Below are positions 40,497 through 56,180 of a stretch of DNA of 64,000 nt, in pieces. The stretch comes from Parasphingopyxis lamellibrachiae. GTDB lineage: Bacteria; Pseudomonadota; Alphaproteobacteria; Sphingomonadales; Sphingomonadaceae. Position 1 is the first letter of the stretch. Each line of letters starts with the position of its first letter. Where the stretch lies: positions 744,001-808,000 of the forward strand of contig NZ_QRDP01000004.1 of the NCBI RefSeq assembly GCF_003385775.1, given 5' to 3'. The notes below the pieces were generated by a model. That model was not told the DNA's origin and did not search any database. It saw only the letters and a list, made by a program, of their open reading frames with translations. A program made the position numbers and the translations under genes.

Positions 40497-42505
40497 AGAT
40501 GGGCTCGAAGCTGACGGCGCTACTTACGGCCAGCGCCTTTGTTCTCGCATCCTGCGGCGGTGGAGGTGGTGGCGGAACGCCCGGCAACACCCAGGGAAAC
40601 CCCGCGCCGCCGCCACCCCCGCCTCCTCCGCCAGCGACAACGCAATATTCGGTTCCCGCCCAGCTATCGCTCTCCACCGCGGATGTGCAGCAGATCATCG
40701 CGCAGGCCGCCGGCGAAGCGAATGCGCGCGGCCTGCCCGTCGCTATCGCCGTGGTCGACCGGGTGGGCAATGTGCTCGCCGTCTACGCGATGACCGGCGC
40801 CGACCTTTCACTGACCGTCCCGGCTCCATCCGGCACCAATTTCGACTTGCAGGGCACGGCCCTTCCCGCGCCCGCTGCGGCAGCCGGCGCAATCGCCAAG
40901 GCGATCACCGGGGCTTATCTCTCCTCCGGCGGCAATGCGTTCTCGACACGGACGGCGAGCGAGATCGTGCAGCAGCATTTTCCTCCCGCGCCGACCACAG
41001 TCGGCCTTGAAAGCGGACCGCTGTTCGGCGTGCAGTTCAGCGCGCTGCCCTGTTCCGATCTTGTCTCCCGCTTTACCGGCGTTGCGGGTCCCAATGCGCT
41101 GATCGGGCCGAAACGCTCGCCGCTGGGGCTGTCCGCCGATCCCGGCGGTTTCCCGCTGTACCGGAATGGCGTCGTCATTGGCGGCGTCGGGGTGATGGGC
41201 GACGGGATTTACGGGTTCGATCCCAACCGGCTCGACAATGACAATAGCGACGAGGAGGCGATCGGGCTTGCGGCAACGGTCGGCTTCGAACCGCCCGCAT
41301 CGATCCGCGCCAACCGCATTCCGGTGGACGGCACGACGCTCAAATTTTCCGATGCCGATACCGGCGATTTCCGGAGCAACCCGGCAGCGCCGCCAGCTTT
41401 CGCATCGATTGCCGGGGGGCTGGCCGATGTGCCCGGCTATTTCGTCGCCGCTGGCGGCATTCTCGCCGGATCGGCCTATGGCAGCGAAGCTTCGGGCATC
41501 CGCGCCTCGACCGCCGGCGAATTCAGCATTCGCGACGCCTTTATCCTGTCCGACGGTTCGGGCGCAAACCGCTTCCCGATCCGCGCCGCGACCGACGCCG
41601 CCGATGTCACCACCCCGCTGACCGCCGGCGAAGTGACCGCACTGCTCGAAGAAGCCTTTATCATCATGCGCCGCGCCCGGGCGCAGATCCGCCGGCCGCT
41701 GGACAGTCGGGCACAGGTAACGATCTCAATTGTCGATACGCATGGCGAGATACTGGGCATTGTCCGTTCGCCCGACGCCCCGATTTTCGGCATCGACGTG
41801 TCGCTCCAGAAAGCACGGACCGCCGCCTTTTTTTCCGGCGCGCAGGCCGGCCTGCTTTTGCAGGGCAATACCAGCGGTATCCCGTCGAACCGGGCCGACA
41901 TCAGGAGCTTCACCCAGGCGACGCGCGATTTCCTTGGCGATCCCAATGCTCTGACCGGTACCTTCGCCTTTGCCGATCGTTCGGGCGGCAATCTCTCGCG
42001 TCCCTTTTTCCCGGACGGCGAGGTGGGCCGGCCCCAGGGGCCGCTCTCCCGGCCGATCGCCAGTTTCAATCCTTTCTCGACCGGTCTGCAATCGGCGCTG
42101 GTGCTCGAGAATATCCTGGACCATGTCGGCTTCATTCTGGGTGGAGGGGTAGGCCCCGACACGCCGGCACGCTGCACGGCAACGCCTGATGTTGCGCCGG
42201 GCCAGAATCCGCTCGAAAACGGCATACAGATCTTCCCCGGTTCGGTTCCCATTTATCGCGGCAACGCGCTGGTTGGCGGGATCGGTGTGTCGGGCGACGG
42301 CATCGATCAGGATGACATGATCAGCTTCCTCGGCACGCATAATGCCTCGCTCCGGGTCGGCGGCATCAACAATGCGCCCCCCGCCATCCGCGCGGACCGG
42401 ATAGTCGTCAATGTTGGCGGCAACGATGTCCGGCTGCGCTATGTCAGCTGCCCTTTCGCTCCGTTCCTCGACACGGACGAAAACAATGTCTGCCAGGGCT
42501 TATAG
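40493..42505 (+). CDS. Lipoprotein with two GlcG/HbpS-type domains
   Basis: 670 residues; starts at GTG 40493 (GTGA overlap) or ATG 40499. The lipobox LASC ends a lipoprotein signal, followed by a Gly then Pro spacer (GGGGGGGT, then PPPPPPPP), so it is tethered to a membrane. Two copies of the GlcG/HbpS (DUF336) fold are visible: LSTADVQQIIAQAAGEAN with AIAVVDRVGNVLAVY, and LTAGEVTALLEEAF with ISIVDTHGEILGIVR. Each carries a long insertion. HbpS-type proteins bind haem or cobalamin-like cofactors. Located between two cytochrome-operon genes, it may bind haem or dock cytochromes; this is inference. Its length, about four times a single domain, is unusual. Confidence 0.8.
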   Translation: MKMGSKLTALLTASAFVLASCGGGGGGGTPGNTQGNPAPPPPPPPPPATTQYSVPAQLSLSTADVQQIIAQAAGEANARGLPVAIAVVDRVGNVLAVYAMTGADLSLTVPAPSGTNFDLQGTALPAPAAAAGAIAKAITGAYLSSGGNAFSTRTASEIVQQHFPPAPTTVGLESGPLFGVQFSALPCSDLVSRFTGVAGPNALIGPKRSPLGLSADPGGFPLYRNGVVIGGVGVMGDGIYGFDPNRLDNDNSDEEAIGLAATVGFEPPASIRANRIPVDGTTLKFSDADTGDFRSNPAAPPAFASIAGGLADVPGYFVAAGGILAGSAYGSEASGIRASTAGEFSIRDAFILSDGSGANRFPIRAATDAADVTTPLTAGEVTALLEEAFIIMRRARAQIRRPLDSRAQVTISIVDTHGEILGIVRSPDAPIFGIDVSLQKARTAAFFSGAQAGLLLQGNTSGIPSNRADIRSFTQATRDFLGDPNALTGTFAFADRSGGNLSRPFFPDGEVGRPQGPLSRPIASFNPFSTGLQSALVLENILDHVGFILGGGVGPDTPARCTATPDVAPGQNPLENGIQIFPGSVPIYRGNALVGGIGVSGDGIDQDDMISFLGTHNASLRVGGINNAPPAIRADRIVVNVGGNDVRLRYVSCPFAPFLDTDENNVCQGL

Positions 42506-42507: not shown

Positions 42508-44445
42508 ATGTCGGCCATTGCCCCTCTGATCTGCATCGCGGTGGCCGCGCAGGGGCCGGGCGCCTATGGGCCTCCGACTCCGTTTTCCTCGACGCTCGCT
42601 TTTTCCATGGCGGCGGCCGAACCGGGCGGCAGCGCAATGCGCCGCCGGATACCGGGCGAAGATGAAACCGGCCTCAACGAAATCCAGATCGAAGACGGGA
42701 CGGAACCGGGCGATGCCGACGAAACCATCATCGACGGCCGCCGCCGGCCCGGCGTGCCGCAGTCCAATCTTCCCGACCCGGTAACCCAGGAAAATATCGG
42801 TGCCGTACGCGCACCGCCACCCCAGGCCTTTCCCGGTGACGAGTTTCCAGTCCCCGATCGCTGGCGGATCGTCGAATCCATCGGCGTTAACGAGAATTTC
42901 CTCGACCCCTATAACCAGAACACGTTGAAGGGCGACCGACCGATCCCGCTCGGCGACCTGCCGGACTGGCTGCCGATCAATGGCGACGACTGGTTCTTCA
43001 TCGTCAACGCGGTGTCCGACACGGTGATCGAACCGCGCAGCTTCCCGACACCCGTCGGCGTCCAGACCACAACGGAACCCGACAGCCTCGACGTGTTCGG
43101 CCAGGCCGACAGCCTTGTGCTGGCGCAAACCTTCATCACCGGGGTCGCCCTGCTCAAAGGGTCGACCGCCTATCGGCCGCCCGATGTCGAATACCGGGTC
43201 ACGCTGGCGACCCAGTTCAACTATGTCGACGTCAACGAGCGCCGGATCCTGTTCGTCGAACCGAGCCGCCCCAGCCATCGTTTCGACTGGTTTACCGGGG
43301 TCCAGGAACTCTTCATCGACTATCACTTCCGCAACACGTCGCGGCGCTATGACTTCGATTCCATCCGGGTCGGAGTGCAGCCGTTCAACGCCGATTTCCG
43401 GGGCTTCCTGTTTCAGGACAACCAGCTTGGCGTTCGCTTTTTCGGCACGAGAGACAATAACCGGCTGCAATATAATCTCGCTGCTTTCATGCGGCTCGAA
43501 AAGGACACCAATTCGGGGCTGAACGATCTCTTTGCGACGCCGCGTTCGGACTATGTCTTTCACGCCAATCTGTTTCGGCAGGATCTGCCGGTCGCCGGCC
43601 TCACCAGCCAGTTCAGCGTCACCTATAATATGAACCGCGAACGCACCGATGTGGAAATCGACGACAACGGTTTCCCTGTACGACCGGCACTGCTCGGCAC
43701 GTTGCGCGGCCGCAACTATGACGTGCTCTATCTCGGTTATAATGCGGACGGGCGCATCGGCCGGATCAATGTGTCCGGCTCCACCTATCTCGCGCTCGGC
43801 GAGGATCGGAGCAGCTTCTTTACCGACGAGCCGGCGGATATCTTCGCCTATTTCGGAGCGGCCGAGCTCAGCTACGATGTCGACTGGATGCGCTTTCGCC
43901 TCTCGGGCCTCTATGCGAGCGGCGACGGCGATCCCTATGACAATACCGAGCGCGGCTTCGATGCGATTTTCGAAAACCCGATCTTTGCCGGCGCGGACAC
44001 CAGTTACTGGATCCGGCAGGTCATTCCTTTTGCCGGCGGCGGGCGTGCGATCGGTGTGAACGGACGCAACGGCATATTGAATTCGCTGCGCTCGTCCAAG
44101 GAGCAGGGTCAGTCCAATTTCAACAATCCTGGAACGATATTGCTCGGCGTCGGTGCGGATTTCGATATCGCCCCTTCCCTGCGCCTGTCGGCCAATGCGA
44201 ACCATCTCTGGTTCGAGGATACGGCCAGCCTGCAAGCGTTGCGCAATGAAGGCAGCATTCCGTCATCAATCGGCTATGACCTGTCGGCTGCTGCAATATG
44301 GCGCCCGCTGTCCACGCAGAATATCGTGCTTCGACTGTCGGGCGCCGTTTTCGAAGCTAGCGATGGCTTTTCCGACCTGTTTGCACAGGATAGGCGCTCG
44401 GGCACCTATTACTCCGTCCTCTTCAACGCGATACTTACCTACTGA
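42508..44445 (+). CDS. Putative outer-membrane beta-barrel protein of the cytochrome operon
   Basis: 645 residues, no named family recognised. The N-terminus has a short hydrophobic segment (SAIAPLICIAVAAQGPGA) that could be a signal peptide, then an Asp/Glu/Arg-rich region (~40-130). From ~170 on, alternating amphipathic strands rich in Tyr, Phe, Arg and Asp, such as YRVTLATQFNYVDVNE and DVDWMRFRLSGLYASG, end in YYSVLFNAILTY, which looks like a beta-barrel. Position between a haem-binding-type lipoprotein and a giant multihaem cytochrome suggests the porin of a porin-cytochrome conduit, comparable in role but not clearly homologous to MtrB/PioB. It starts 2 bases after the previous stop and overlaps the next start by 1 base. 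Confidence 0.72.
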   Translation: MSAIAPLICIAVAAQGPGAYGPPTPFSSTLAFSMAAAEPGGSAMRRRIPGEDETGLNEIQIEDGTEPGDADETIIDGRRRPGVPQSNLPDPVTQENIGAVRAPPPQAFPGDEFPVPDRWRIVESIGVNENFLDPYNQNTLKGDRPIPLGDLPDWLPINGDDWFFIVNAVSDTVIEPRSFPTPVGVQTTTEPDSLDVFGQADSLVLAQTFITGVALLKGSTAYRPPDVEYRVTLATQFNYVDVNERRILFVEPSRPSHRFDWFTGVQELFIDYHFRNTSRRYDFDSIRVGVQPFNADFRGFLFQDNQLGVRFFGTRDNNRLQYNLAAFMRLEKDTNSGLNDLFATPRSDYVFHANLFRQDLPVAGLTSQFSVTYNMNRERTDVEIDDNGFPVRPALLGTLRGRNYDVLYLGYNADGRIGRINVSGSTYLALGEDRSSFFTDEPADIFAYFGAAELSYDVDWMRFRLSGLYASGDGDPYDNTERGFDAIFENPIFAGADTSYWIRQVIPFAGGGRAIGVNGRNGILNSLRSSKEQGQSNFNNPGTILLGVGADFDIAPSLRLSANANHLWFEDTASLQALRNEGSIPSSIGYDLSAAAIWRPLSTQNIVLRLSGAVFEASDGFSDLFAQDRRSGTYYSVLFNAILTY

Positions 44446-47400
44446 TGACAAGCTGGCTTTCCCTTCCGCGTATCGCGATGCTGCTGGCCGCGGCAACCAT
44501 CCTGTTCGCCATTGTTGCAAGCCCCGGCGGCGCTGCGGGCGGCGAGACCGCTGTAGTGCGGGACTATGTGGCGGCGGGCGTTCTGGCAGATCCCGCACCG
44601 CGCAATCAAGACGAAGCTGCCGTACTGGAAAAAAGCTCTGGCTGCCTCACCTGCCATGCCTATCGGAACGAAGATGGCACGCTGATCGAAGACCATGAAT
44701 CGCGCGCGACTGCGGAATATATCGATCGCATGTCGATGCATTCCACGCCTGCCGTCAATCTGGGTTGCACCGACTGCCATGGCGGGAACTGGCGCGAAGC
44801 GCGCCCCGATACCGTGCCCGACGACCCCGAAAACCCGGAGTATCTTGCGGTTCAGTATCGCGCGCACGTGCTACCGCTTTACCCGGACAGCTGGCACTTC
44901 CCGTCGAGCGCCAATCCGAACCGTTCCTACACATTGCTGTCCCGCGAAAGCCCGGAATATATCCGCTTCGTCAATCCGTCCGACTATCGCGTGGTGCGCG
45001 AGGCGTGCGGTGCCTGCCATATCGAGGTGATTGAGGCGGCCGAGCGGTCACTGATGGCAACCGGCGCGATGCTTTGGGGCGGAGCATCCTATAATAACGG
45101 CATCCTTCCCTACCGGAACTATATCCTGGGCAGCGCCTATACGCGCGATGGCGAACCGGCGAGTGTCGTCTCCCCCAGAACCGCCCATGGAGCGGACGAC
45201 GAAGCCATCAATCCACTCGACAGCAGTCGCATCACTGCCGCGGACCGAGCACGCGGCGTATTGCCCGGTTTTGTCCCACTCCCGACCTGGCACGTTGTTC
45301 CGCCCGGCGATATTTTCCGCGTGTTCGAACGCGGCGGCCGCAACATCGCAACACAGTTTCCCGAGATCGGCATTCCCAATATCGGCGGCAATATCCAGCG
45401 GCTTGAGGAACCCGGCCGACCGGACTTGCGCCAGTCCAATCGCGGCCCCGGCACCGGCCTGCGCGTTTCGATCCCGGTTCTCAACATCCACAAGACCCGC
45501 CTCAACGATCCGTTCACATGGTTCATGGGCACGAACGACCAGCCCGGCGATTATCGCCATTCGGGCTGTGCGTCCTGCCATGTCGTCTATGCCAATGACC
45601 GCGAACCGCGCCATTCGCTGACCTATTCGCAATTTGGCAGGGACGGACAGTCGGCCACGGCCGATCCCACGATCAACCGGCTACGCGAAGGCCAGCATCG
45701 TTCCGACGCACATGAAGAGCCGGAAGTCGATGTCTCGATGGAGCCCGGGCAGTGCGGTGCAGCCTTTGACAGGGTTGCCGCGAGCATCCGCGCGCAGCGC
45801 AGCGGAAGCGAGCATCACGACGAGGAAAGTCCAGAAGGCGAAACGCATGACGGCGTCGGCGGCCCCGGGGAAGCCGGTCATGCTTCAGCCCCGGCCCCCT
45901 TTGCCGAACGTGAGCGCGGTCATCCGATCCAGCATGCCTTCACCCGTTCGATCCCGACTTCGCAGTGCATGAACTGCCACATGCATCAGCCGAACATGTT
46001 CCTGAACAGCTTCCTCGGTTATACGATGTGGGACTATGAGAGCGATGCGCCGCTGATGTGGCCGCAAGACCAGATCTACCGCACCGCCGAACAGATGTTC
46101 GCGATCCTCGACCGTAATCCCGAAATGGCTGCTGTTCGCGGGTGCTGGGGCGATATCGACTTTGTCCGCAACGTTACCGATCTGATCAATCCCGAGGCAC
46201 GGACGACGCAATTTGCCGATTATCACGGCCATGGCTGGAATTTCCGGGCGATCTTCCGCCGCGACCGGGACGGCAATATGCTGGACGAAGACGGCAATAT
46301 TCTCGACCCGGACGACCCCGAACTGTTCCGGCGCGAAGGCGAAGGCCAGTTTGTCGAGGTCGGCACCAATCCGGGCCGTTCCGTGCATATGATGGATATC
46401 CATGCCGAGATCGGCATGCAGTGCGCGGACTGCCATTTCGCGCAAGACAGCCATGGCAACGGGCTGATCTATGGCGAAGTGGCGAGCGCGGTCGAGATTG
46501 GCTGTGCGGATTGCCACGGCACTGCCGACGAATATCCGACGCTGCGGACATCCGGGCCGGCCGCGCCTCCGTCCGGCACCAACCTGACCCTGTTGCGCAA
46601 CCCGGACGGCCAGCGCCGTTTCGAATGGATGCGCGACAATGAAGGTCGCCGGATACTCGTCCAGAGATCAATCATCGATCCCGAACTGGAATGGGAAGTG
46701 AGCCTTGTCCGCGACACGGTCGACCGGACTCATCCCGATTTCAACGAAGCCTCCGCGCGATCGAAGCTGATGGGACGGGGCGGCGCCGAAAGCGGCGTGT
46801 TCGAGTTCGGCCCTGGCATCCTGCGCGAAGACCGCGCGCACCGTGACGACGAAATGGCCTGCTTCACCTGTCATCTGAGCTGGACGACATCGTGCGGCGG
46901 TTGCCATCTGCCGATCGAGGCCAATGCGCTGACCTCCAGCCATCATTATGACGGTCTGCAGTCCCGCAATTTCGCGACCTACAACCCGCAGGTCGCCCGC
47001 GACCAGATGTTCCAGCTTGGCCGTCATCAGGATACGCGCGGCAATATCATCGCGCCCGTCCGCTCCAGTTCGGCGCTGGTGCTGAGCTCGACCAATATCA
47101 ACCGCGAGCGCATCTATGTACAACAGCCGCCGATATCGGCCTCGGGCTATTCGAGCCAGGCTTTTGCGCCGCATTTCCCGCACACCGTCCGCCGAACGGA
47201 AACCAAGCAATGCACCGATTGCCACCTGTCCGAAGCAAACGACAATAATGCGATCATGGCGCAGCTGCTGCTGCAGGGAACCAATTTCGTCAATTTCGTC
47301 GGACTCAACGCATGGGTTGGCAACGAACGAGGATTCCAGGCCATCCGCGTAACCGAATGGGACGAACCCCAGGCCGTGTTCGGTTCCTATCTCCATCGCT

Positions 47401-48755
47401 TCGCCTATCCCGATTACTGGCGCATTCATGTCGAGGATCATGACCGGGAGCTGCGCGAGTTCCGGCGGGGACGGATATTCGATGCCGACCTGTCGGGAGA
47501 AACCCGGGCGTTGGAAGAAATCGAACATATCACGCAGGGCACGAACGGCGCAGCCCAGTGCCTCCAGCTGCGCGGCGAATATATGTTTGTCGCCGAAGGA
47601 CGGGGCGGCTTCCAAGTTTATGATGTCGCCAGCATTGCGAACAAGGGCTTTTCAGAGCGGATCATTACCGCGCCCTTCTCTCCGCTGGGCCATGACACGC
47701 GCGTGGATTCGGAGAACGCCACCTGCATGGCGCTGCCGACCAACCAGAATATCGCGCCGACCCGCCAGGAACGCATGGCCAGCATCATGGTCACCGAGGC
47801 CGACGGCACGGAACGCAGCCTGCTCGACATCAACCGGGAGCAGCGCTTCCATCCCATCTATAACTATGCCGTGGTCACGGACAGCGTGGAGGGCATGTTC
47901 CTCGTCAATGTGAACACGATGGCCGATGGCGAGCTGCGCAACAACTTCCTCGATCGCGCGGTGACGTGGAACGAGAATGGTGTGCTGAACGGCGCCCGTC
48001 ATATCGTTCTTGGCGGCCATTATGCCTATATCGCGGCGGATGCCGGAATGGTTGTCGTCGATCTCGATAATCCGCTCGAACCGCGTCATGTGACCACCAT
48101 TCCGCTCAACGACGCACGGGCCTCGGCCCTGCAGTTCCGTTATCTCTGGGTCACGACGGCGGAAGGTGTACAGCTTATCGACGTGACCAGTCTCGAAGAA
48201 CCGCGCCTGATTCCGGAAGCCACCTTCCCGCTCGCCGATGCGCGGCGGCTTTATGTTGCGCGGACCTATGCCTATGTGGCGGCCGGACACGACGGGCTCG
48301 TTATCCTCAACGTCACCAATCCCGAAGCACCGGTGGAACACAGCCGGTTCGCCCGGGAAGGCGAAACGCCGGACACCAATGACGTGATTGTTGGCACAAC
48401 CAATGCCTCGCTCTTCGCCTATATCGCAGATGGAGTGAACGGGATGAAGGTGTTGCAGCTGACAAGCCCGTCGAGCCAGCCCAATTTCTATGGCTTCTCG
48501 CCCGCGCCGGTGCCGGAAATGATCGCCTGGGTACGGACATCCTCGCCCGCCCTCGCCCTTTCCAAAGGGCTGGACCGGGATCGCGGTGTCGATGAAACTG
48601 GCGGCCAGATGGCTATTTTCGGCCGGCAAGGATCCCGGCCCTTTACCCGCAGCGAAATGGAACGGCTGTTCCTCAACAGCCGCCGGGTGCCCTACCGGGT
48701 CAGCGACGAAGTCAATATGGACAATTGGGTGACGGCGGCTTTCGCCCGGCGCTGA
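44445..48755 (+). CDS. Giant decaheme cytochrome c with C-terminal LVIVD-type propeller
   Basis: 1436 residues. An N-terminal signal or anchor (IAMLLAAATILFAIVAS) is followed by ten CXXCH sites at residues 67, 108, 188, 375, 508, 660, 687, 806, 817 and 923. Widely spaced haems suggest several folded modules and a long electron wire. From ~1010 onward, repeats like MVVVDLDNPLEPRHV, VQLIDVTSLEEPRLI and LVILNVTNPEAPVEH match the LVIVD beta-propeller pattern, often a protein- or substrate-docking surface. No lipobox was seen. Last gene of the plus-strand operon; it ends 3 bases from the convergent phosphodiesterase gene. Terminal reductase and conduit roles are both possible. Confidence 0.88.
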   Translation: MTSWLSLPRIAMLLAAATILFAIVASPGGAAGGETAVVRDYVAAGVLADPAPRNQDEAAVLEKSSGCLTCHAYRNEDGTLIEDHESRATAEYIDRMSMHSTPAVNLGCTDCHGGNWREARPDTVPDDPENPEYLAVQYRAHVLPLYPDSWHFPSSANPNRSYTLLSRESPEYIRFVNPSDYRVVREACGACHIEVIEAAERSLMATGAMLWGGASYNNGILPYRNYILGSAYTRDGEPASVVSPRTAHGADDEAINPLDSSRITAADRARGVLPGFVPLPTWHVVPPGDIFRVFERGGRNIATQFPEIGIPNIGGNIQRLEEPGRPDLRQSNRGPGTGLRVSIPVLNIHKTRLNDPFTWFMGTNDQPGDYRHSGCASCHVVYANDREPRHSLTYSQFGRDGQSATADPTINRLREGQHRSDAHEEPEVDVSMEPGQCGAAFDRVAASIRAQRSGSEHHDEESPEGETHDGVGGPGEAGHASAPAPFAERERGHPIQHAFTRSIPTSQCMNCHMHQPNMFLNSFLGYTMWDYESDAPLMWPQDQIYRTAEQMFAILDRNPEMAAVRGCWGDIDFVRNVTDLINPEARTTQFADYHGHGWNFRAIFRRDRDGNMLDEDGNILDPDDPELFRREGEGQFVEVGTNPGRSVHMMDIHAEIGMQCADCHFAQDSHGNGLIYGEVASAVEIGCADCHGTADEYPTLRTSGPAAPPSGTNLTLLRNPDGQRRFEWMRDNEGRRILVQRSIIDPELEWEVSLVRDTVDRTHPDFNEASARSKLMGRGGAESGVFEFGPGILREDRAHRDDEMACFTCHLSWTTSCGGCHLPIEANALTSSHHYDGLQSRNFATYNPQVARDQMFQLGRHQDTRGNIIAPVRSSSALVLSSTNINRERIYVQQPPISASGYSSQAFAPHFPHTVRRTETKQCTDCHLSEANDNNAIMAQLLLQGTNFVNFVGLNAWVGNERGFQAIRVTEWDEPQAVFGSYLHRFAYPDYWRIHVEDHDRELREFRRGRIFDADLSGETRALEEIEHITQGTNGAAQCLQLRGEYMFVAEGRGGFQVYDVASIANKGFSERIITAPFSPLGHDTRVDSENATCMALPTNQNIAPTRQERMASIMVTEADGTERSLLDINREQRFHPIYNYAVVTDSVEGMFLVNVNTMADGELRNNFLDRAVTWNENGVLNGARHIVLGGHYAYIAADAGMVVVDLDNPLEPRHVTTIPLNDARASALQFRYLWVTTAEGVQLIDVTSLEEPRLIPEATFPLADARRLYVARTYAYVAAGHDGLVILNVTNPEAPVEHSRFAREGETPDTNDVIVGTTNASLFAYIADGVNGMKVLQLTSPSSQPNFYGFSPAPVPEMIAWVRTSSPALALSKGLDRDRGVDETGGQMAIFGRQGSRPFTRSEMERLFLNSRRVPYRVSDEVNMDNWVTAAFARR

Positions 48756-48758: not shown

Positions 48759-49622
48759 CTATTTGCGGTCGTTCGCATGTTCTTCGAGAAGATATCTCAC
48801 CAGCGGCTGCATCGTCTCGTCATAGCGGGCGAGTTGGACATGGTCGTCCGCGTTGCAAAGATGCGAGATCAGGGCGGCACCATTCCAATAATGGAGCGCA
48901 TAGGCGGCCGGATCGGCGACGATCATCGGGCGATTGTCCGGTTTCGCCGGATCGATCGGCCTGAGGTCGAGCGCCACTTGCGGCGCGGTTGACGGTGTAA
49001 CCGCGAGCGGAAGCCCGGCCCAACCTGTCACGATTGGCCGGTGGATATGGCCGGCAATCAGGCCGATAACATTGTTTGCGGGGGCCAGAGCGTCGCGCAA
49101 ATTGGTCACCCATTGTGCTTCGGGCTCGCTCGTCATCCAGGGGATTCCCGTTTCGATCGGCGGGTGGTGCAGCACGATCAGCGTTGGTTTGTCGCGTTCC
49201 TCTGCAAGCCGCTCGCTGAGCCATGATGCGCGCGTGTCACAAAATGCGCCGCCATGCCGGCCCGGCTCCAGCGTATCGAGAACAATCATCCGGATCGGCC
49301 AGCGATCTTCGTCGATTACATATTGAACAAAGCCGTCGGACTTGGGCACTTCGGGAAAGAGCTTCGCAAAGCCGTCGCGATCGTCATGGTTACCCATACA
49401 GGGCCAGACGGGAAAGGGGCAGCGGCCAAAGGCCGATTTCAGCCGCCGATAGCTGTCGGTATCGCCCTTGTCGGTAAGATCGCCGGTCGCGAGCAACAGA
49501 TCGGGAAGTGGCTCCATCTCACAGAGCCGTTCCAGCACCTGATCGAGCCGGCGACGGTTGAATTCCGCCGGGTCGTCCGGATCGAAACCCAGATGAATGT
49601 CGGTTATCTGTGCAATCAGCAT
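48759..49622 (-). CDS. Metallophosphoesterase, CpdA/GpdQ-type (putative cyclic nucleotide phosphodiesterase)
   Basis: 287 residues with the full binuclear metal set: D8 and H10 in ITDIHLG, GDLTDKGD, GNHDDRDG, HHPPIETG and GHIHRP. This is the class III cyclic-nucleotide phosphodiesterase group (CpdA, GpdQ, Rv0805), which hydrolyses cAMP and other phosphodiesters. It is the last gene of the minus-strand operon that begins with a protein carrying two cyclic-nucleotide-binding domains, so cAMP or cGMP removal is a sensible proposal. It starts 55 bases after the FHA-cytochrome stop. Other phosphodiesters (glycerophosphodiester) cannot be excluded. Confidence 0.87.
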   Translation of the reverse strand: MLIAQITDIHLGFDPDDPAEFNRRRLDQVLERLCEMEPLPDLLLATGDLTDKGDTDSYRRLKSAFGRCPFPVWPCMGNHDDRDGFAKLFPEVPKSDGFVQYVIDEDRWPIRMIVLDTLEPGRHGGAFCDTRASWLSERLAEERDKPTLIVLHHPPIETGIPWMTSEPEAQWVTNLRDALAPANNVIGLIAGHIHRPIVTGWAGLPLAVTPSTAPQVALDLRPIDPAKPDNRPMIVADPAAYALHYWNGAALISHLCNADDHVQLARYDETMQPLVRYLLEEHANDRK

Positions 49623-49677
49623 GGAGCTGGGGTTTCCCTATCTGCCATGCGCCCTCCCTGTTCCGACTCTCTATTGC

Positions 49678-51516
49678 TCAGCGGTCTCCACGGGGGTTGA
49701 TCGCCAACCCTCCATAATCCCGAACGCTGCGCGGCCTTTGACCGCGATTATTCCGTGCGCGGACAAGATAAGGTGCCGCATCGTCTGCATGATAGCTGTG
49801 ACACATAGCACAGGTAGAGACGATTTCGTTGCCGCCCGCCACGGCCCCGGCATGGCAATCCCTGCATGTTTCGATTCCCGGCAACAGCACGTCGCTGGCT
49901 TCCTCGGATTCCGACGCGACATGGCAGGTCGAACAATCCTCCGTTTCATGCGCCGCATGATCGAACCACCCATCATGCATATAGCGCGAAATCTGGCGAA
50001 CCGGGACAATGTCGAAAGCGAGCGAGGCGCGCGTCGGCGGACGTTCCACCTCATGGCAATCGAAGCAGGCGCCGTCGCGTGAGAATACCGCGCGGATAGC
50101 TGAGTCCGCCTGGGCGTACCGCGTACGCGCAGCGAACTGATACCGGCCAACGGTTCGCGCACGGCTGTCATCGCCCGGCCGGCGACGCTCCATGCCGGAA
50201 AGATCGATCGGGCGGCGGGGCGAAGTTCCGCGATAAAAGGCCCGGATGTCGGCGATGACCATTTCCGGCTCGCCATGGCGCAAAGTGCGGACCGTTCCGC
50301 CGATGCGATCGAAGGCAAGGCTGTGGCACATCTGGCAATTGGCTTCCATCGAGATCGGTTCAAAGCGCGTTCCGTCCGGTGTCGCGACATGGCAGTCCGC
50401 ACAATCGAGCGCTTCACCGAAGCCATATTCATCGCTCAACCGTTGCGCCATCCGCGCCACGCCGTTGGTGTCCGAAAGATGCAGCTCATGCGGAAATTTG
50501 AGGCCGGTATTTTCCTGCGGTTCATCGTCGATGCTGACCCGGCGATAGCGCGCCATGCCATTCTCGTCAGCCGGCCTCGTCATGATGCGGGGGCGGAACT
50601 CGGGATGATCGCTGCCGAAATCATGCGCATTTAGCAGACTGGTTTCGGTGAGCCGGGTATCGAGATCAGTGTGGCAATCGGCACAGAATTGCTGCGGAGC
50701 CGCCGCCATCCGGCCTGCACCTTCATGTTCGACATGGCATGATGCGCAGCTGCGCTCGGGCCGGTTGAACGCCGTTGCAACTGTTCGCAGGAAGCTACGA
50801 CCGAAGCCAAGTTCCGGTTCCGCCGTCGCCATCAGATCGGCCTCGGCATGATCGGGTATGTCGGTATGGCATTCCACACAGGCGCTGTCGCGGACCGAGA
50901 CAAAGGCCTCGACATGGCAGGACTGGCAGTCGTTGGCGAGATTGGCATGCCCGTCGGACATCGCCCCGCTCACCCAGAGTGTATCGGCGTGAAAGCCGTC
51001 CGCGCGCTGCTCGACACCCTTGCTCGAATAATAGGAATAGATGGGAAAGGCGAGGCAGGAGAGGAGGATCAGCGCGACGAAAACCCAGGAAGTGATCCGC
51101 TTGCCAGGGACCACGCCGGCCAGCGAGAACATCCGGTGCGCTTTGACTTTGTCCGCACTTTCTTCGCGATCGACGGTGATGGCGATTCGGCCCTCTTCGC
51201 CCTCACCATCGCCGATCCCGATGCTCAGCCGGTGCGGTCCGATACGCACCGTTCCGCCGCGCACCGCGCTGATATCCGCCCGCGTCGTCGACCGGCCATT
51301 GACGGTAACCGGCAGATTTTCCTCGGTAACGATGGTGACCTGGCTTTTGCCCGAAAGCTGGATTGTTGCATGATGCAGTGTCACACCGAGATCGCTCAGA
51401 ACGATATCGCACTCGGCGCTGCGGCCGATTTTCAGCGTATCGGAATCAACGGTCTTCGCCCGGATGATCTCCCGACCCCCCGACGTGCGCGAACGATATT
51501 TGACGACAAAGCTCAT
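49678..51516 (-). CDS. FHA-domain membrane decaheme cytochrome c
   Basis: 612 residues from ATG 51516, which sits 7 bases after the upstream stop with AGGGG in between; the frame can be read from 51579 but that would overlap the cytochrome b gene. An N-terminal cytoplasmic FHA domain (~28-98, with GRSAECDIVLSDLGVTLHHA) normally binds phosphothreonine. One membrane helix (~142-163, SWVFVALILLSCLAFPIY) follows, then a periplasmic region with ten CXXCH sites (CQSCH at 197, CVECH at 213, then CASCH, CADCH, CADCH, CQMCH, CFDCH, CSTCH, CRDCH, CAMCH). A signalling domain fused to a multihaem wire is unusual. It likely receives electrons from the adjacent cytochrome b. Confidence 0.9.
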   Translation of the reverse strand: MSFVVKYRSRTSGGREIIRAKTVDSDTLKIGRSAECDIVLSDLGVTLHHATIQLSGKSQVTIVTEENLPVTVNGRSTTRADISAVRGGTVRIGPHRLSIGIGDGEGEEGRIAITVDREESADKVKAHRMFSLAGVVPGKRITSWVFVALILLSCLAFPIYSYYSSKGVEQRADGFHADTLWVSGAMSDGHANLANDCQSCHVEAFVSVRDSACVECHTDIPDHAEADLMATAEPELGFGRSFLRTVATAFNRPERSCASCHVEHEGAGRMAAAPQQFCADCHTDLDTRLTETSLLNAHDFGSDHPEFRPRIMTRPADENGMARYRRVSIDDEPQENTGLKFPHELHLSDTNGVARMAQRLSDEYGFGEALDCADCHVATPDGTRFEPISMEANCQMCHSLAFDRIGGTVRTLRHGEPEMVIADIRAFYRGTSPRRPIDLSGMERRRPGDDSRARTVGRYQFAARTRYAQADSAIRAVFSRDGACFDCHEVERPPTRASLAFDIVPVRQISRYMHDGWFDHAAHETEDCSTCHVASESEEASDVLLPGIETCRDCHAGAVAGGNEIVSTCAMCHSYHADDAAPYLVRARNNRGQRPRSVRDYGGLAINPRGDR

Positions 51517-51523
51517 CGCACCC

Positions 51524-52435
51524 CTACCAGTAGAAAAATACGCTGACGATATGCGCAGACAGTGCCGCAAGCAGCGCAAAGGTCATCGGAACATGGATAT
51601 ACAGCCAGATCTGAAGCAGAGCCTTGATCCGCAAATGCCTGCGGATGCGCGAAAGCGCCGCCTGTTTGCGCGCCAAAAGTGCCTCGAGCCGATCGTAAAG
51701 TTCGTCAAGCGACCGGTCTCCGTGCGAAGAGCGCGCCCGGAAATCGGCCAGACCGCGCGCCGTTCCCCCGCCGCGATATTTGCCGCTCAGCCTTTGCCCG
51801 ATCCCGCCATCGAACGGCGTTTCGTCGATCGCCTCCTGGATGACAGCCGCGCCGTCCGCATCGAGCGGCTGCGCGGTATCGAACAGCTGACGATCGATAT
51901 CGGTTACCGTTTCCAGCATCTGTGCTTCGGTCGTCTCATCGCGATTACTGCTGAGCTGACGCGGCAGAATACCATAAACCGTTATCCCGAAAATGCCGGT
52001 GACGATAACGATCATCATCAGCACCCAGGCCAGGGTATGGACGTTCCATCCTAACTGGAAGCCGGTGTGCAACGTCCCGATCACGACAAGCGACAGGCCG
52101 AGATAGACATGCGCCGATGTCCACCCCTTGAGCGACCAGCGACCGGGCGTCATCGCACGCTTGCGGACCCCGAGCATCGTCAGCCACAGGATGAGACCGC
52201 CACCCGCCGTTCCCAGGGTGTAGCCGAGCCAGCTGCCGCCATTGTGCCGCGGCTCTACATCGATCAGCACATAAGCGATGATCAGGGTGACCGAAATGCC
52301 GAGCGCCATTTTCCCCCAATAGCTACCGCGATATCGCCATACGCCCTCATGCCGGGCTCCTGTCGAGACCGTGCTCCGCTCGACCTCGTCGGTTTCGGCC
52401 AAATCCGTGCCCACGTCTGCTCTCCGGGTCGCCAT
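51524..52435 (-). CDS. Membrane cytochrome b-type protein
   Basis: 303 residues with about five membrane helices (~43-60, 69-90, 107-127, 134-157, 273-300) and a soluble loop (~160-270). Candidate haem b ligands are H109, H123, H133, H281 and H295 in AHVYLGLSLVVIGTLHTGF, NVHTLAWVL and IHVPMTFALLAALSAHIV, the pattern of di-haem b quinone/electron-transfer subunits. It lies 2 bases after the oxidoreductase stop and 7 bases before the decaheme start. It would pass electrons across or into the membrane between the Fe-S protein and periplasmic cytochromes. Family name not recognised. Confidence 0.82.
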   Translation of the reverse strand: MATRRADVGTDLAETDEVERSTVSTGARHEGVWRYRGSYWGKMALGISVTLIIAYVLIDVEPRHNGGSWLGYTLGTAGGGLILWLTMLGVRKRAMTPGRWSLKGWTSAHVYLGLSLVVIGTLHTGFQLGWNVHTLAWVLMMIVIVTGIFGITVYGILPRQLSSNRDETTEAQMLETVTDIDRQLFDTAQPLDADGAAVIQEAIDETPFDGGIGQRLSGKYRGGGTARGLADFRARSSHGDRSLDELYDRLEALLARKQAALSRIRRHLRIKALLQIWLYIHVPMTFALLAALSAHIVSVFFYW

Positions 52436-52437
52436 GC

Positions 52438-54882
52438 TCAGCCTTGCTCCGTTTCAAGCCGGGCAACCGACAGGAATTCTTCCGGCGCAACCCGAATGGC
52501 GGCGCCCGTCGGGCAGGCCCGCACACAAGCCGGCCCCCCCTTGATGCCTGCACACATGTCGCATTTGATCGCCTGTTTGGGCGTGTCTTCGGCCACTCTC
52601 TCCTCAATCCAGTCATGTTCCGGTTCGCCCGGTCCCGGCCCTGAACCGAAAAACAGCCAGCTCAGCAATGACGGTTTGGGTGGCGGCACTTTTTCCATGC
52701 GGATCACGCCATACGGGCAGTTTCTCTGGCAGTTGCCGCAACCGATGCAGGTATCGTCGATAAACACCTCGCCATCATCACCGCGATGGATCGCGTTGGG
52801 CGGGCAATCGGCCATGCAGTGCGGGTGCTCGCAATGGCGGCAGCTGGTCGGAACATGGAGATGCGCATAGGTCCGCCCCGCCTCGCGGTTGAGCCGCGAC
52901 AGTCCCTCATGGCTATCGGCACAGGCCTTCTCGCAATTGTCGCAGCCGACGCACAGATTTTCATCGATCAGCAGGACATCCGTCGCTTCGCCAATGCCGT
53001 TCTCGACCAGGAAGGAGGATATCGAACTGTACATGTCGACAACGCCGGAGAAGCTGTCCTTTTTCGCCTCGACGAAATTGTTCACATTTTCGCGCGCTTC
53101 GACATCGCTTCGGGCGCGTGCAAGCAGCTCGGGATTCTTCTCAAGCAATGCTCGGAAGGCATGGCCATCGACCTTGATGACTTCCGATTTGATCGCCGCG
53201 CGCACCGTTGCCGTGCGCGGCGTATCGTCGAGCACCGCCATTTCACCGACATAGGAGCCGGCCGGCAGGTAGGAGAGGAATACCGGTTTGCGCCCGACCA
53301 TCTTCTCGACGACCATTGAGCCTGAACGGATCACATAGAGATCGATACCGGTATCGCCCTCTTCGATGATCGCCTCGCCGGCCTTGATCGTCATGATCTC
53401 GGCGCTGTCTACGATTTCGGCAATGTCTTCCTTGGTCAGCCCGGAACCGAACATCTGCAACAATTGCCGTTCGGTCGCAATCCGCGTGATGGCATCCCGT
53501 GCGGGCGGAACCTGACTTTGCAGCTTGAGCGCGGCCATGCGCGGAATTTCGACACAAATGGAATCTTCCGCCGCAACAACCGTCGAGCCGCGGCGACGCC
53601 CCGAAACCAGGCCCACCTCGCCGACGATTGAGCCGCATTCGATGCCGACCGTTTTCGACGGATCATCGGCATCGACCTGCACCAGCACCGATCCGCTGGC
53701 TATTGCGAAGAGTGAAGATCCGGGATCGGCACGGTCGAACAAAGTCTCGCCGCGTCGATAAGCCCTGACTTCACTGTCGAGCATGAATTCGCGCATCTGA
53801 AGCGGCGTCATGGGTTCCAGGATCGTGACGCTACTGCGCAGGAATTCGAGCCATTCGTCGACGCTTTTGCGGCCGGGCAAATTCTTGAACTTGGCTTCGA
53901 GGATCGGTTCGTCGGCGGGTTTGAGCGTCGTGTTGCCATTGATGAACTCGACCACGTCATGGCCCTGGTTCATGCAATGCTTGATCAGCGGATAACCGGC
54001 CAGCGCGCCGATCACATACACGCCCTTCTTGCTGCTTTCGAAGGTCGGCGAAAGCACCGGGAAGGCATTGCGGTCCGGGCCCGAAAATTCGGCGCCGCAG
54101 GCCTCCACAAAAGCCCGCGGCGGGGCCGAGCCCATCCGCGCGATGACACGATCGCATCGTATCTTGGTTTCCCCGTCGCGCGTATCGAAGGTTATCTCCC
54201 CCGTGCCGATATGCGAGGCCGTGGTTTCGGTGAGTATGGAAATGCGTCCGGCATCGCCCGCCGCCAGCAGCGCTTTGACATTGGCCCCCTTGGCCGTCGC
54301 GAATTCGGGGCCCCGGTTGACGAGAGTAACGCTGTTATTCTGTTCGGGGTCAGCCGCAAGCCCCAGAGCATTCTCGATACCGGCATCGCCACCACCGATA
54401 ATCGTGATATGCTCGTCTACATATTCGCCGGGATCATCGAGCGTATACTGAACGACCGCACCGTCATCGACGGGGCAGCGCACCAGATTAGGATTGCCCT
54501 GAGTGCCGATGGCCAGAATGATATTTTCAGCCGAAACCGTCTCGCCATCGGCAAAGGTGATCCGAAAGTTGCCGGCATCTCCCTCGACAGCTTTTACTTC
54601 CGAATTGAGCCTGACATTGACATCATGACCGGCGGTTTGCTCGTCCCATGTGCCGAGCACGACCTCGCGCTTTCCGGCTTCGAAATCCATGTCCGAGCGC
54701 AGCACAAGCTGGCTCGGCGTGGCCATCACATGCTTGCCCTTCTGATATTTGTAAATCGTATCGGAAAGGTGGTCGGTCTTCTCGATCAGGATGTGCGATA
54801 CGCCAAGCTGCGCGGCACGGGCTGCGGCGCTCAGGCCCGCCGGCCCCGACCCGACAATAGCGATACGATATGCGTCCGCCAA
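52438..54882 (-). CDS. FAD/NAD(P) oxidoreductase fused to two cyclic-nucleotide-binding domains and a 16-Cys ferredoxin
   Basis: 814 residues from a TTG at 54882 with AGGGGG 5 bases upstream; the frame can extend to 54972, but that segment looks non-coding. Residues ~5-330 are a thioredoxin-reductase-like fold: FAD motif GSGPAG at 11-16 and NAD(P) motif GGGDAG at 163-168, with no redox CXXC. Two CNB domains follow (~365-455, ~475-585); the second has the phosphate-binding cassette GEMAVLDDTPRTATV, the first a degenerate one (GEVGLVSGRRRGSTV). The C-terminus carries 16 Cys in four [4Fe-4S] patterns (644-654, 681-693, 712-722, 774-790) like DmsB/NrfC. Predicted to move NAD(P)H electrons to the cytochrome b under cyclic-nucleotide control. 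The same fold without CXXC occurs in ferredoxin reductases, so the direction of flow is not proven. Confidence 0.9.
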   Translation of the reverse strand: MADAYRIAIVGSGPAGLSAAARAAQLGVSHILIEKTDHLSDTIYKYQKGKHVMATPSQLVLRSDMDFEAGKREVVLGTWDEQTAGHDVNVRLNSEVKAVEGDAGNFRITFADGETVSAENIILAIGTQGNPNLVRCPVDDGAVVQYTLDDPGEYVDEHITIIGGGDAGIENALGLAADPEQNNSVTLVNRGPEFATAKGANVKALLAAGDAGRISILTETTASHIGTGEITFDTRDGETKIRCDRVIARMGSAPPRAFVEACGAEFSGPDRNAFPVLSPTFESSKKGVYVIGALAGYPLIKHCMNQGHDVVEFINGNTTLKPADEPILEAKFKNLPGRKSVDEWLEFLRSSVTILEPMTPLQMREFMLDSEVRAYRRGETLFDRADPGSSLFAIASGSVLVQVDADDPSKTVGIECGSIVGEVGLVSGRRRGSTVVAAEDSICVEIPRMAALKLQSQVPPARDAITRIATERQLLQMFGSGLTKEDIAEIVDSAEIMTIKAGEAIIEEGDTGIDLYVIRSGSMVVEKMVGRKPVFLSYLPAGSYVGEMAVLDDTPRTATVRAAIKSEVIKVDGHAFRALLEKNPELLARARSDVEARENVNNFVEAKKDSFSGVVDMYSSISSFLVENGIGEATDVLLIDENLCVGCDNCEKACADSHEGLSRLNREAGRTYAHLHVPTSCRHCEHPHCMADCPPNAIHRGDDGEVFIDDTCIGCGNCQRNCPYGVIRMEKVPPPKPSLLSWLFFGSGPGPGEPEHDWIEERVAEDTPKQAIKCDMCAGIKGGPACVRACPTGAAIRVAPEEFLSVARLETEQG

Positions 54883-55208: not shown

Positions 55209-56180
55209 ATGACATCAGACAAAGACACAGCAAAATCCACGAGCGGCAATATGGCCCGCTACGCCCTGATTGCGGCGGCGGCCGTTGCGACCTTCTCTAT
55301 CGGCTTCGCGATTGCCCGGGGAGATGACAGGGGCGCGGCCGTAAGCGGCGCGCCCGAAGGCACGGACCAGGCGGCGGCTATGGGCAACGCCGAACTCGCC
55401 CAAGCTATCCCGCAGCTCGAGGCGCGGCTCGAAGCCAACCCCGAGGATGAGGAAGGCTGGGCGCTACTCGGCCTCTCCTATTTCCAGACCGGTCGGTATC
55501 CGGAAGCGGCCCGCGCCTATGGTCAGGCGAGCGAGCTGAACCCGACACTGGCGCGCTATCATGCGGCCCGCGGCGAAGCGCTGGCCCTAGCGGCGGACGA
55601 AGGATTCCCGGAAGAAGCACAGCAAGCCTTCGCCCGCGCCCTGGAACTCGATCCAGCCGATCCCCGCGCGCGCTATTTCGAAGGCGTTCGCAAAGACATT
55701 GCTGGCGATCATGCAGGCGCGATCGATGACTGGATTGCATTGCTTGGCGATACGCCGGCAGGCGCCCCGTGGGAGCCCGATCTGCGCCGCCTGATTGCAG
55801 AAGTTTCGGCCGAACACGACATCGATGTCGAAGGCCGCGTGCCGCCGCCGGGAACTCGCGCGCAAACCAATGTTCCCGCCGCGGCCACCCAGGCTATTCC
55901 GGGCCCGAGTCCAGCGGAAATGCGGGCGGCAAGTAACTTGCCGCAGGGCCAGCAGGACATGATGATCGAAGATATGGTCAATGGCCTCGATCAGCGCCTG
56001 ACCGCCAATCCGAACGACCCGGACGGCTGGATCATGCTGATGCGGTCCCGCATGCAGTTGGGCCAGTCAGCGCAAGCCGGGGGCGCGTGGCGCCGGGCGC
56101 GAGAGGCCGTTGCGGGGAATTCCGCACAGCTCGAACGGATCAATGCGGCGGCGCGCGCACTCGGCGTGCCCGAAGCCTAG
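55209..56180 (+). CDS. CcmI/CycH-like cytochrome c maturation TPR protein
   Basis: 323 residues. A membrane helix near the N-terminus (ARYALIAAAAVATFSIGFAIA) is followed by TPR repeats (~65-190: PEDEEGWALLGLSYFQTGRY and PDDPRARYFEG-like units; and ~240-310: PNDPDGWIMLMRSRMQLGQ). This is the layout of the periplasmic part of CcmI/CycH, which holds apo-cytochrome c for haem attachment. Start at ATG 55209; an internal ATG at 55251 is possible. Its position next to 25 haem c sites fits. It is shorter than a full CcmI, like the NrfG/CcmH-C type. Its stop TAG shares the CTAG palindrome with the convergent TetR stop. Confidence 0.82.
   Translation: MTSDKDTAKSTSGNMARYALIAAAAVATFSIGFAIARGDDRGAAVSGAPEGTDQAAAMGNAELAQAIPQLEARLEANPEDEEGWALLGLSYFQTGRYPEAARAYGQASELNPTLARYHAARGEALALAADEGFPEEAQQAFARALELDPADPRARYFEGVRKDIAGDHAGAIDDWIALLGDTPAGAPWEPDLRRLIAEVSAEHDIDVEGRVPPPGTRAQTNVPAAATQAIPGPSPAEMRAASNLPQGQQDMMIEDMVNGLDQRLTANPNDPDGWIMLMRSRMQLGQSAQAGGAWRRAREAVAGNSAQLERINAAARALGVPEA

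Follow-up and report, generated by a model that had tools for sequence, protein, structure and literature searches.

We find that a flavoprotein-ferredoxin fusion with two tandem CNB domains (A), a five-helix cytochrome b (B) and an FHA-decahaem protein (C) form a conserved gene set, A-B-C, and that the set which recurs in many proteobacteria is A-B-C together with the output genes G-F-E and often H. We interpret this gene set as a cyclic-nucleotide-gated transmembrane electron conduit, a reading to which we give a probability of about 0.6. The locus was analysed in a window of 64,000 nucleotides from Parasphingopyxis lamellibrachiae (Sphingomonadaceae; contig NZ_QRDP01000004.1, positions 744,001 to 808,000); its features are listed in Table 1. 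The gene order, domains, cofactor ligands, nucleotide cassettes and co-occurrence that we draw on can all be read directly from sequence.

In the mechanism we propose, NAD(P)H would reduce the flavin of A, and the four iron-sulfur clusters of the same protein would hand electrons to B, whose two haems would carry them across the inner membrane. The ten-haem domain of C, in the periplasm, would take them over from B and pass them to the output cytochromes H and E, held by or near the barrel F and the lipoprotein G. The CNB pair lies between the flavin and ferredoxin modules of one chain, and nucleotide binding may move these modules so that electrons are either passed or blocked. In the Sphingomonadaceae-containing clade the neighbouring cyclase probably makes the signal, and the phosphodiesterase D may remove it. 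A gate makes sense in such a system: left open, the path would be a drain on NAD(P)H and on the membrane potential. Of this scheme, the gating, the direction of the electrons and their final acceptor are the parts that we infer, together with the identity of the ligand and the roles of D, of the FHA domain and of the cyclase.

Table 1. Genes and protein regions of the locus, in positions of the window.
Feature	Position	Strand	Remarks
A, flavin/NAD(P)-CNB1-CNB2-16-Cys ferredoxin fusion	52438..54882	-	814 aa, TTG start; proposed electron entry, putative gate
A residues 1-335, FAD/NAD(P)H oxidoreductase domain (YpdA/TrxR-like)	53878..54882	-	PF07992/PF13738; structure matches 7a7b_A, 7a76_A
CNB1, about residues 366-470 of A	53473..53787	-	invariant residues include G421, E422, R429, R431
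CNB2, about residues 484-597 of A	53092..53433	-	invariant residues only G521, G546, E547, R556
A residues 636-806, four [4Fe-4S]-type Cys sets	52465..52977	-	16 Cys conserved
B, five-helix cytochrome b	51524..52435	-	303 aa
C, FHA + single hydrophobic helix (by eye) + decahaem domain	49678..51516	-	612 aa
D, calcineurin-like phosphodiesterase, GpdQ/Rv0805 relative	48759..49622	-	287 aa; clade-specific
E, decahaem cytochrome, C-terminal LVIVD repeats	44445..48755	+	10 CxxCH; N-terminus signal-peptide-like (by eye)
F, beta-barrel, AlgE-like	42508..44445	+	18 strands in predicted model
G, protein with HbpS-like stretches	40493..42505	+	N-terminus lipobox-like (by eye)
H, pentahaem cytochrome c554-like	39102..40496	+	one CX4CH + four CX2CH
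CHASE2 class III nucleotide cyclase	21242..23290	+	candidate ligand maker; putative link to A
J, CcmH/CycH-like TPR protein (c-type cytochrome maturation)	55209..56180	+	divergent neighbour of A

Results

A-B-C is conserved across loci and genomes

A preliminary description of this DNA had reported four minus-strand genes, A to D, separated by 2, 7 and 55 bases, and both the spacing and the domain content are borne out by the open reading frames and by domain searches. The arrangement is not a chance one, since order and content recur across whole genomes. Of the 111 distinct loci in which the sequence continues for over 3.5 kb past A, 99 have B and C downstream of A, on the same strand, comprising 26/26 loci of the clade and 73/85 others. 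A search of the genomes behind 11 of the 12 exceptions found a strong B in every one (E about 2e-100 or better); in the twelfth, G347, B and C adjoin its other copy of A. In 7 of these 12 exceptional non-clade loci A follows E or H instead, and in four loci (L080, L169, L181 and L182) it stands apart from every known partner within the examined stretch. To regard the four genes as the whole system, as had been proposed, captures the recurrent A-B-C set and misses the output genes, which lie on the plus strand (39102-48755) and run convergently with A-B-C-D. The cyclase gene at 21242-23290 had likewise been overlooked. On its other side, A is adjoined by J in most family loci according to the locus comparison, and a start codon is aligned with the start of A in 14 of 16 other rows.

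The named carriers of A include Sphingobium, Solimonas and Dokdonella, and all 12 of the A-bearing records in a plasmid collection are Sphingobium replicons of 0.88-1.28 Mb. In two Sphingobium records the genes are annotated as 'cyclic nucleotide-binding domain-containing protein', 'cytochrome c3 family protein' or 'hypothetical protein', and no description of the gene system was found in the part of one open-licence literature library that was covered.

The entry proteins retain their cofactor ligands

The redox modules of A are strongly conserved. The glycines of both nucleotide-binding stretches of the flavoprotein domain are kept in the alignment, as are the 16 ferredoxin cysteines, save for gaps in one or two of 138 rows. 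The flavoprotein part scores below the cut-off of the YpdA model (118.3 bits against 339.9); the ferredoxin region likewise scores under that of the DmsB-family model (59.3 against 214.1), so A is not a DmsB equivalog. No NrfD/DmsC membrane subunit was found encoded with A; B follows it instead, and in L110 and L111 (two genomes, one genus) A and B are fused in one reading frame. The 1262-aa A proteins of L191 and L192 were considered as further fusions and rejected, as by eye they look like an over-long upstream frame; in the tree analysis such rows were trimmed to their final 830 residues.

The only Pfam match of B is a sub-threshold one to the cytochrome b561 family PF01292 (22.9 bits, cut-off 30.1); the same search gave no ferric-reductase-like membrane domain, a profile search of PDB sequences gave no match, and a Foldseek comparison of the B model with the PDB returned nothing at E <= 0.001. 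Five long helices, which we read as the membrane helices, stand out in the predicted model (mean pLDDT 87). Five histidines (H109, H123, H133, H281 and H295) are invariant in 57 rows. An RKR between helices 2 and 3 is also invariant and would fit a loop on the inner side. C matches the FHA family PF00498 (27.5 bits, cut-off 20.7) as well as c-type haem families, and its ten CxxCH motifs are invariant in 17/17 aligned rows. The binding loop of FHA domains, which bind phosphothreonine, is marked by Gly-Arg and Ser-x-x-His (the SRxH motif); in the 17-row alignment G31, R32 and H49 of C are invariant and the Ser of SRxH is not conserved, which counts against our reading; the role of this domain is putative.

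The phosphodiesterase is a clade-specific addition

Of the 28 loci of the Sphingomonadaceae-containing clade 26 carry D, and in the two others the contig is cut inside A; outside the clade D is present in 0/105 loci. It is thus a clade-specific add-on, and the proposal that the system is in general reset by its own phosphodiesterase is not supported. The preliminary description had named homologous clusters without the CNB domains or without the phosphodiesterase gene as evidence against it: clusters without D are what we find outside the clade, and none without CNB domains were seen, since the homologues examined carry these domains within A.

Within the clade, D may serve as an off-switch. 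The competing possibility, to which we give slightly less than even odds, is that its substrate is a 2',3'-cyclic nucleotide or some other phosphodiester and that it sits in the operon for another reason. D is a clear member of PF00149 (73.7 bits, cut-off 21.5), and D8, H10, D48, N78, H79, H152, H192 and H194, which we take to be metal-ligand positions, are invariant in 17 rows. Of the curated models it fits SpdA best (144.8 bits, cut-off 400) and CpdA less well (85.5 bits, cut-off 225), in both cases below the equivalog cut-off. SpdA is, by its name, a 2',3'-cyclic-nucleotide enzyme. The better score against SpdA and the absence of D from all 105 non-clade loci favour the competing possibility. 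Against it, the closest solved relatives of D include Rv0805, which cleaves both 2',3'- and 3',5'-cyclic nucleotides, and in L112 a relative of D adjoins a gene similar to the CHASE2 cyclase.

Output genes and possible acceptors

E is found in 19/19 A-bearing genomes of the family, even where the two genes are far apart (G032, G010) or on separate contigs (G029), and also in two family genomes that are 66-67% complete and in which A was not found. All ten CxxCH motifs are present in 28/28 complete copies. F adjoins E in the compared loci and has no Pfam match; the best PDB matches of its predicted model are AlgE, followed by MOMP and Occ/OprD porins. As an AlgE-like 18-strand barrel, F is probably an outer-membrane protein. 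We had expected a barrel like MtrB and did not find one in the 18-strand, AlgE-like model, as MtrB/PioB barrels have about 26-28 strands; because F is not of the MtrB type, any passage of electrons through the outer membrane is hypothetical. A second type of output accompanies A in 9 loci, where pentahaem proteins occur with a protein of 520-550 aa that is barrel-like by eye.

The identity of F bears on where the electrons end up. Instead of leading to the cell exterior, the module may work as a regulated reductase in which E or H handles a soluble substrate of the periplasm or the outer membrane as the acceptor. We regard this alternative as a serious one at somewhat less than even odds. An AlgE/OprD-like 18-strand porin would suit the passage of small molecules better than the sheathing of a decahaem protein, and the occurrence of A with the second output points the same way. 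It is opposed by the character of the output cytochromes: domain and curated-family searches matched E to no catalytic family, the CxxCK motif was not found in it, and a comparison with PDB sequences gave nothing for E and only a weak match (E 0.0057) for H.

The nucleotide pockets and the cyclase

A matches PF00027 in two stretches with 113.7 bits (cut-off 27.5), and in the search of its own genome the two copies score 67.3 and 55.5 bits. Across 117 A representatives just 4 of the 114 positions of CNB2 are invariant, three of which (G546, E547 and R556) we take to be nucleotide-pocket positions; CNB1 retains their counterparts. The pairs E422/R431 and E547/R556, presumably the Glu and Arg of the phosphate-binding cassettes, are present in 137/138 aligned rows, and the remaining row is a contig fragment without this region. 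With pocket residues invariant in CNB2 and their counterparts kept in CNB1, cyclic-nucleotide binding by both domains is very likely. This conservation points to selection on the pocket and does not in itself establish that binding gates electrons. The most likely candidate ligand is 3',5'-cAMP.

A possible source of the ligand is the class III cyclase of the window (PF00211, 65.2 bits, cut-off 21.9; CHASE2, 92.3 bits), in which D446, K486, D490, T560, N567 and R571, read from motifs and taken by us as the catalytic residues, are all present. With two incomplete genomes set aside, class III cyclases occur in 19/19 A-bearing and 2/15 A-lacking genomes of the family, or 11/11 and 2/15 when counted by genus, and in 26/26 and 163/263 of a class sample, tests that ignore kinship; at class level, genome size is probably a confounder. 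Reading by hand, we find a cyclase gene no more than 30 kb from E or A in 12 of the 14 genomes that could be assessed (all but G010 and G023), and in L033 and L036 a CHASE2 cyclase lies upstream of H on the same strand. The cyclase of the window is nearer to CHAT/two-partner-secretion genes than to A, and may in truth belong with these. Outside the clade, 5/80 named loci, one itself a clade member, carry a cyclase-like gene close to A, which by our estimate is not clearly above chance and is therefore not counted as support.

It is unlikely, in our judgement, that the CNB domains bind some other ligand, or merely hold A together, so that 3',5'-cyclic nucleotides do not switch electron flow. 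CNB folds can serve other ligands, the ligand of A is one whose identity we infer, and the scarcity of cyclase-like neighbours, along with genome-wide counts that cover Alphaproteobacteria and not Gamma- or Betaproteobacteria, leaves room for this alternative. It has to contend with the nucleotide phosphate/ribose pocket being among the invariant residues of both domains, and with cyclases that track A within the family.

Control at the level of transcription was considered as well. A CRP-like inverted repeat upstream of A (TGTGC-N6-GCACA, 54948-54963) has two mismatches to the consensus, and was rejected as evidence for cAMP control of transcription since the window holds 11 sites as good as this and the repeat was not found in the 14 relatives checked. 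Promoter and terminator scans gave sites no more numerous than in shuffles.

Discussion

The cyclic-nucleotide-gated path from NAD(P)H to periplasmic haem of the preliminary description is thus partly supported, through the co-conservation of A-B-C, the conserved CNB cassettes, the A-B fusions and the tracking by cyclases; the reset by its own phosphodiesterase is not supported as a general feature. That electrons run inward, an external or periplasmic donor reducing the cytochromes and A making NAD(P)H, is improbable: all parts are reversible in principle and multihaem systems for electron uptake exist, but no energy-coupling site was recognised, NAD(P)H and low-potential clusters would make the outward direction downhill, and Sphingobium, Solimonas and Dokdonella are aerobic heterotrophs.

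The gated conduit that we favour resembles several known systems in part. Like the Mtr/porin-cytochrome conduits (MtrCAB with CymA), it clusters an inner-membrane entry with a decahaem protein of the periplasm, a barrel and a second decahaem protein. The entry there is CymA, a NapC-type quinol oxidase, whereas here it would be an NAD(P)H flavoprotein with a cytochrome b, the entry protein carries tandem nucleotide-binding domains, and the barrel is 18-stranded and AlgE-like instead of MtrB. The 16-Cys ferredoxins DmsB, NrfC and HycB likewise use four [4Fe-4S] Cys sets to feed a membrane partner, but that of A is joined to a flavin and two CNB domains, and its partner is a cytochrome b and not NrfD/DmsC. 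YpdA/Bdr and TrxR-like flavoproteins align with A in their FAD and NAD(P) domains over residues 6-295; in A, unlike in these, the flavin domain would be the entry to iron-sulfur clusters. NADPH oxidases and transmembrane ferric reductases are alike in working, with NAD(P)H, flavin, two transmembrane haems and second-messenger control (Ca2+ in NOX5), yet Pfam gives no sequence relation, and an iron-sulfur relay and multihaem output are found here. The CNB cassette is that of PKG, PKA regulatory subunits, CRP and the CNB-fused acetyltransferase Pat (tandem-domain PKG and PKA chains are among the best solved-structure matches of A, and CRP and Pat models match too); in those proteins it controls kinases, transcription or acetylation, whereas in A the pair sits between two redox modules. 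D, finally, is a relative of GpdQ, Rv0805, CpdA and SpdA with intact metal-ligand positions, below the curated cut-offs of the last two.

In its fullest form the circuit would run from a periplasm-sensing CHASE2 cyclase through cAMP to the CNB pair, which would close the contact between A and the cytochrome b and let electrons pass through the ten-haem proteins to the cell surface, with a dedicated phosphodiesterase ending the pulse in one clade. We hold this whole chain only tentatively and, taken as a whole, think it improbable. If true, it would be a ligand-gated electron channel, comparable to the ligand-gated ion channels, with a core that is widespread in Proteobacteria.

Regulation of gene expression is a known control on electron export in bacteria, exercised by cAMP-CRP in Shewanella. 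Strictly conserved cyclic-nucleotide pockets inside a redox protein could control the current directly and fast. The question of gating can be reduced to one purified protein, itself a potential part for bioelectronic switches. Genes annotated generically or as 'hypothetical protein' in the two Sphingobium records acquire a predicted job, and the carriers take in genera rarely regarded as electroactive, pollutant-degrading sphingomonads included.

Gene layout of the window

The preliminary description placed four minus-strand genes (A to D) 2, 7 and 55 bases apart; we confirm both coordinates and gaps, and its domain reading of the four is matched by domain searches, by the CxxCH count for C and by a model of B. 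The plus-strand output genes H, G, F and E converge on this set, and a gap of three bases separates E from D. A CcmH-like TPR gene adjoins A and, farther out, a CHAT protein and two-partner-secretion genes lie near the CHASE2 cyclase. A Pfam search finds no match for either the small protein or the 2938-aa protein of the row at 17957-34774. In two Sphingobium records (L021, L022), H is directly adjoined by a large protein that is 32% identical to the C-terminal portion of the 2938-aa protein. We also see an inverted repeat, TGTGC-N6-GCACA, at 54948-54963, 65 bases upstream of A; it is CRP-like with two mismatches, and was not found in the 14 relatives checked.

Genes of the module and its surroundings, in window coordinates
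Feature	Coordinates	Strand	Content
A	52438-54882	minus	flavin/NAD(P) domain, two CNB domains and 16-Cys ferredoxin in a single chain
B	51524-52435	minus	five-helix cytochrome b
C	49678-51516	minus	FHA domain, hydrophobic helix (by eye), ten CxxCH
D	48759-49622	minus	calcineurin-like phosphodiesterase
H, G, F, E	together 39102-48755	plus	pentahaem (H), HbpS-like (G), barrel (F), decahaem with LVIVD repeats (E)
CHASE2 cyclase	21242-23290		PF05226 92.3 bits, PF00211 65.2 bits
Secretion-gene row	17957-34774		CHAT-TPR protein, CHASE2 cyclase, small protein, ShlB/FhaC-type transporter, 2938-aa protein

Conservation of A, B and C

Among 60 relatives searched, A is matched in 20 and the full fusion is present in 19; the genome G050 was rejected as a carrier, its 31% match covering part of the flavin domain only. 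We compared the neighbourhoods of 18 non-window A genomes of the family (19 neighbourhoods, G008 being split on two contigs) and the two Sphingobium records, and find that the order A-B-C-D is kept wherever the contig reaches. E, F, G and H converge with it in most of these; in loci L035 and L037 they do not adjoin. We find the fusion in 26/289 class-sample genomes, one of which (G066) carries it in two partial pieces, and in 15/398 of the phylum sample. A scan of named genomes gives at least 535 relatives among 591 stretches, and we used 80 of these loci. By record title, the named matches listed span Alpha-, Gamma- and Betaproteobacteria and include Rhodospirillaceae, SAR116, Lysobacter, Dokdonella, Tahibacter, Solimonas, Nevskia, Alcanivorax and Burkholderiales bins. 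Other titles (L129, L160, L161, L169, L188, L194) name Marinimicrobia, Mesoflavibacter, Klebsiella, Mycobacteriaceae and Bordetella; these records may be mislabelled metagenome bins, and L129, the only one of the six placed on the A tree, stands beside a Rhodobacteraceae row.

How much of the four-gene order, which the preliminary description proposed to seek across genomes, holds at this distance? We pooled 137 loci (133 with distinct A) and scored those whose DNA extends >3.5 kb downstream of A. On the same strand, B and C come after A in 26/26 from the Sphingomonadaceae-containing clade and in 73/85 others; this part of the order stands, while D is found in 0/105 non-clade loci. Seven of the 12 exceptions have A after E or H instead, with the order C-G-F-E-H-A in L143, L167 and L176 and part of it in L164, L191, L192 and L195; several titles among these seven name Betaproteobacteria. 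The other five (L080, L109, L169, L181, L182) have A without B or C in the locus. Searching the whole genomes behind 11 of the exceptions and behind L188, we find B in 12/12 (E about 2e-100 or better); provided that the contigs correspond, it would sit just upstream of the locus, adjoining C, in L143, L167, L176, L188 and L192. The remaining exception, L109, comes from G347, whose other A copy (L108) has B and C. B thus goes with A even when it is not the next gene, which removes one objection to reading the module as an electron conduit. The two A copies of G347 differ. L164 also contains A twice, and B is found twice in its genome. In two genomes of one genus, A and B form one protein in one frame, of 1118-1123 aa (L110:3052-6420, L111:8001-11354).

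Conservation of the CNB domains

Matches to curated models and solved structures relate the CNB domains of A to PKA, PKG and CRP. In an alignment of 138 A rows (134 distinct, as some genomes are in two collections), all but one row, a contig fragment, have E422, R431, E547 and R556 (137/138). To score invariance, 132 of the 134 distinct rows are long enough, with identity to the window's A down to 42%. With near-copies (≥90%) dropped, 117 rows remain, in which only 4/114 positions of CNB2 are invariant (G521, G546, E547, R556) and 9/105 of CNB1, including G421, E422 and R431. G546, E547, R556 and their CNB1 counterparts correspond to cassette positions that hold phosphate and ribose in PKA, PKG and CRP. 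This pattern is that of selection for nucleotide binding, and it is silent on which nucleotide or what effect.

Output genes

E is present in 19/19 A-bearing genomes among the 60; the only genomes with E and no found A, G006 and G031, have a completeness of 66-67%. E and A are about 620 and 90 kb apart on the same contig in G010 and G032, and on separate contigs in G029; co-occurrence without linkage, tested for E only, argues for joint function. Among the non-clade loci (105, of which many are truncated at a contig end), E is seen in 66, F in 66, G in 67 and H in 38. F is modelled as an 18-strand barrel (mean pLDDT 71, first 140 residues poor) with AlgE as best match (E 4.5e-17, TM 0.44 by query length); it is not of the MtrB kind, and we therefore claim no path through the outer membrane. 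Nine loci (L083, L085, L154, L160, L161, L166, L168, L171, L175) carry a different output set in place of G-F-E in the stretch seen, made up of a protein of ~520-550 aa, barrel-like by eye, and pentahaem cytochromes. Between C and G, 14 loci (L069, L070, L076, L077, L079, L081, L118, L121, L123, L129, L133, L137, L138, L149) have a small secreted-looking protein, alike by eye; a Pfam search of two (L076, L133) gives no match.

Phosphodiesterase and cyclases

D is present in 26/28 clade loci, the misses (L029, L039) being contigs that end inside A. Of these 26 copies, 25 share the strand of A and are no more than 8 kb from it. In L112, from an alphaproteobacterium outside the family, D is a few genes farther and adjoins a gene that resembles the CHASE2 cyclase. 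The profile search behind the non-clade count (E 0.001) gives no match. On a quick midpoint-rooted tree of 62 A proteins, D-bearing loci cluster in a single group of 18 rows (support 99), and L113, which lacks D, branches just outside it; within the group, the tree does not fix the position of L112. A single gain of D is the simplest account. The alignment shows the metal-ligand positions of D to be intact, its solved relatives are Rv0805 and GpdQ (2zo9, listed as 'Phosphohydrolase'), and it scores under both the SpdA and CpdA cut-offs.

PF00211 class III cyclases occur in 19/19 genomes of the window's family with A vs 2/15 without (Fisher 1.1e-7, or 1.0e-6 if two incomplete genomes with E and cyclase and no found A count as lacking A) and, by genus, in 11/11 vs 2/15 (2.0e-5), with kinship ignored throughout. 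Other families of the order have the cyclase in 8/24 genomes and the fusion in 0/24. In the class sample the counts are 26/26 vs 163/263 (1.3e-5), where kinship is again ignored and genome size probably confounds. A cyclase lies <30 kb from E or A in 12/14 A-bearing genomes with long enough contigs (7/9 genera; G001, G002, G008, G025 and G029 were too fragmented), the exceptions being G010 and G023; in L033 and L036 the CHASE2 cyclase precedes H and shares its strand. The genes separating the window's cyclase from the module include cysS and two metabolic genes, and it is nearer the secretion genes, so that its link to A is putative. Two genomes from outside the family also have a CHASE2-cyclase-like gene close to A (L109:2934-6209, L112:17804-19663).

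A possible gated conduit

The analysis shows domains, order, ligand conservation and co-occurrence, and we infer direction, gating, ligand, acceptor and the roles of D, FHA and cyclase; to the module being a nucleotide-gated outward electron conduit we give a probability of about 0.6. Assigned by register, the histidine pairs of B (H109/H123 on helix 3, H281/H295 on helix 5) would suit one haem per membrane side. The Arg/Lys loop that joins helices 2 and 3 is probably inside, as is the large domain that separates helix 4 from helix 5. A would dock on this inner side of B, as the natural A-B fusion suggests, and electrons would reach the haems of C after B. With the flavin module on one side and the ferredoxin module on the other, the CNB pair would be placed to open or close the contact.

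Searches of one open-licence library of papers list no such system, and passages of a review of iron-sulfur flavoenzymes mention neither 'cyclic nucleotide' nor 'cAMP' (PMC8097209). Conduits to multihaem cytochromes are already known; one that is gated directly by a nucleotide would be new, at the far edge of this kind.
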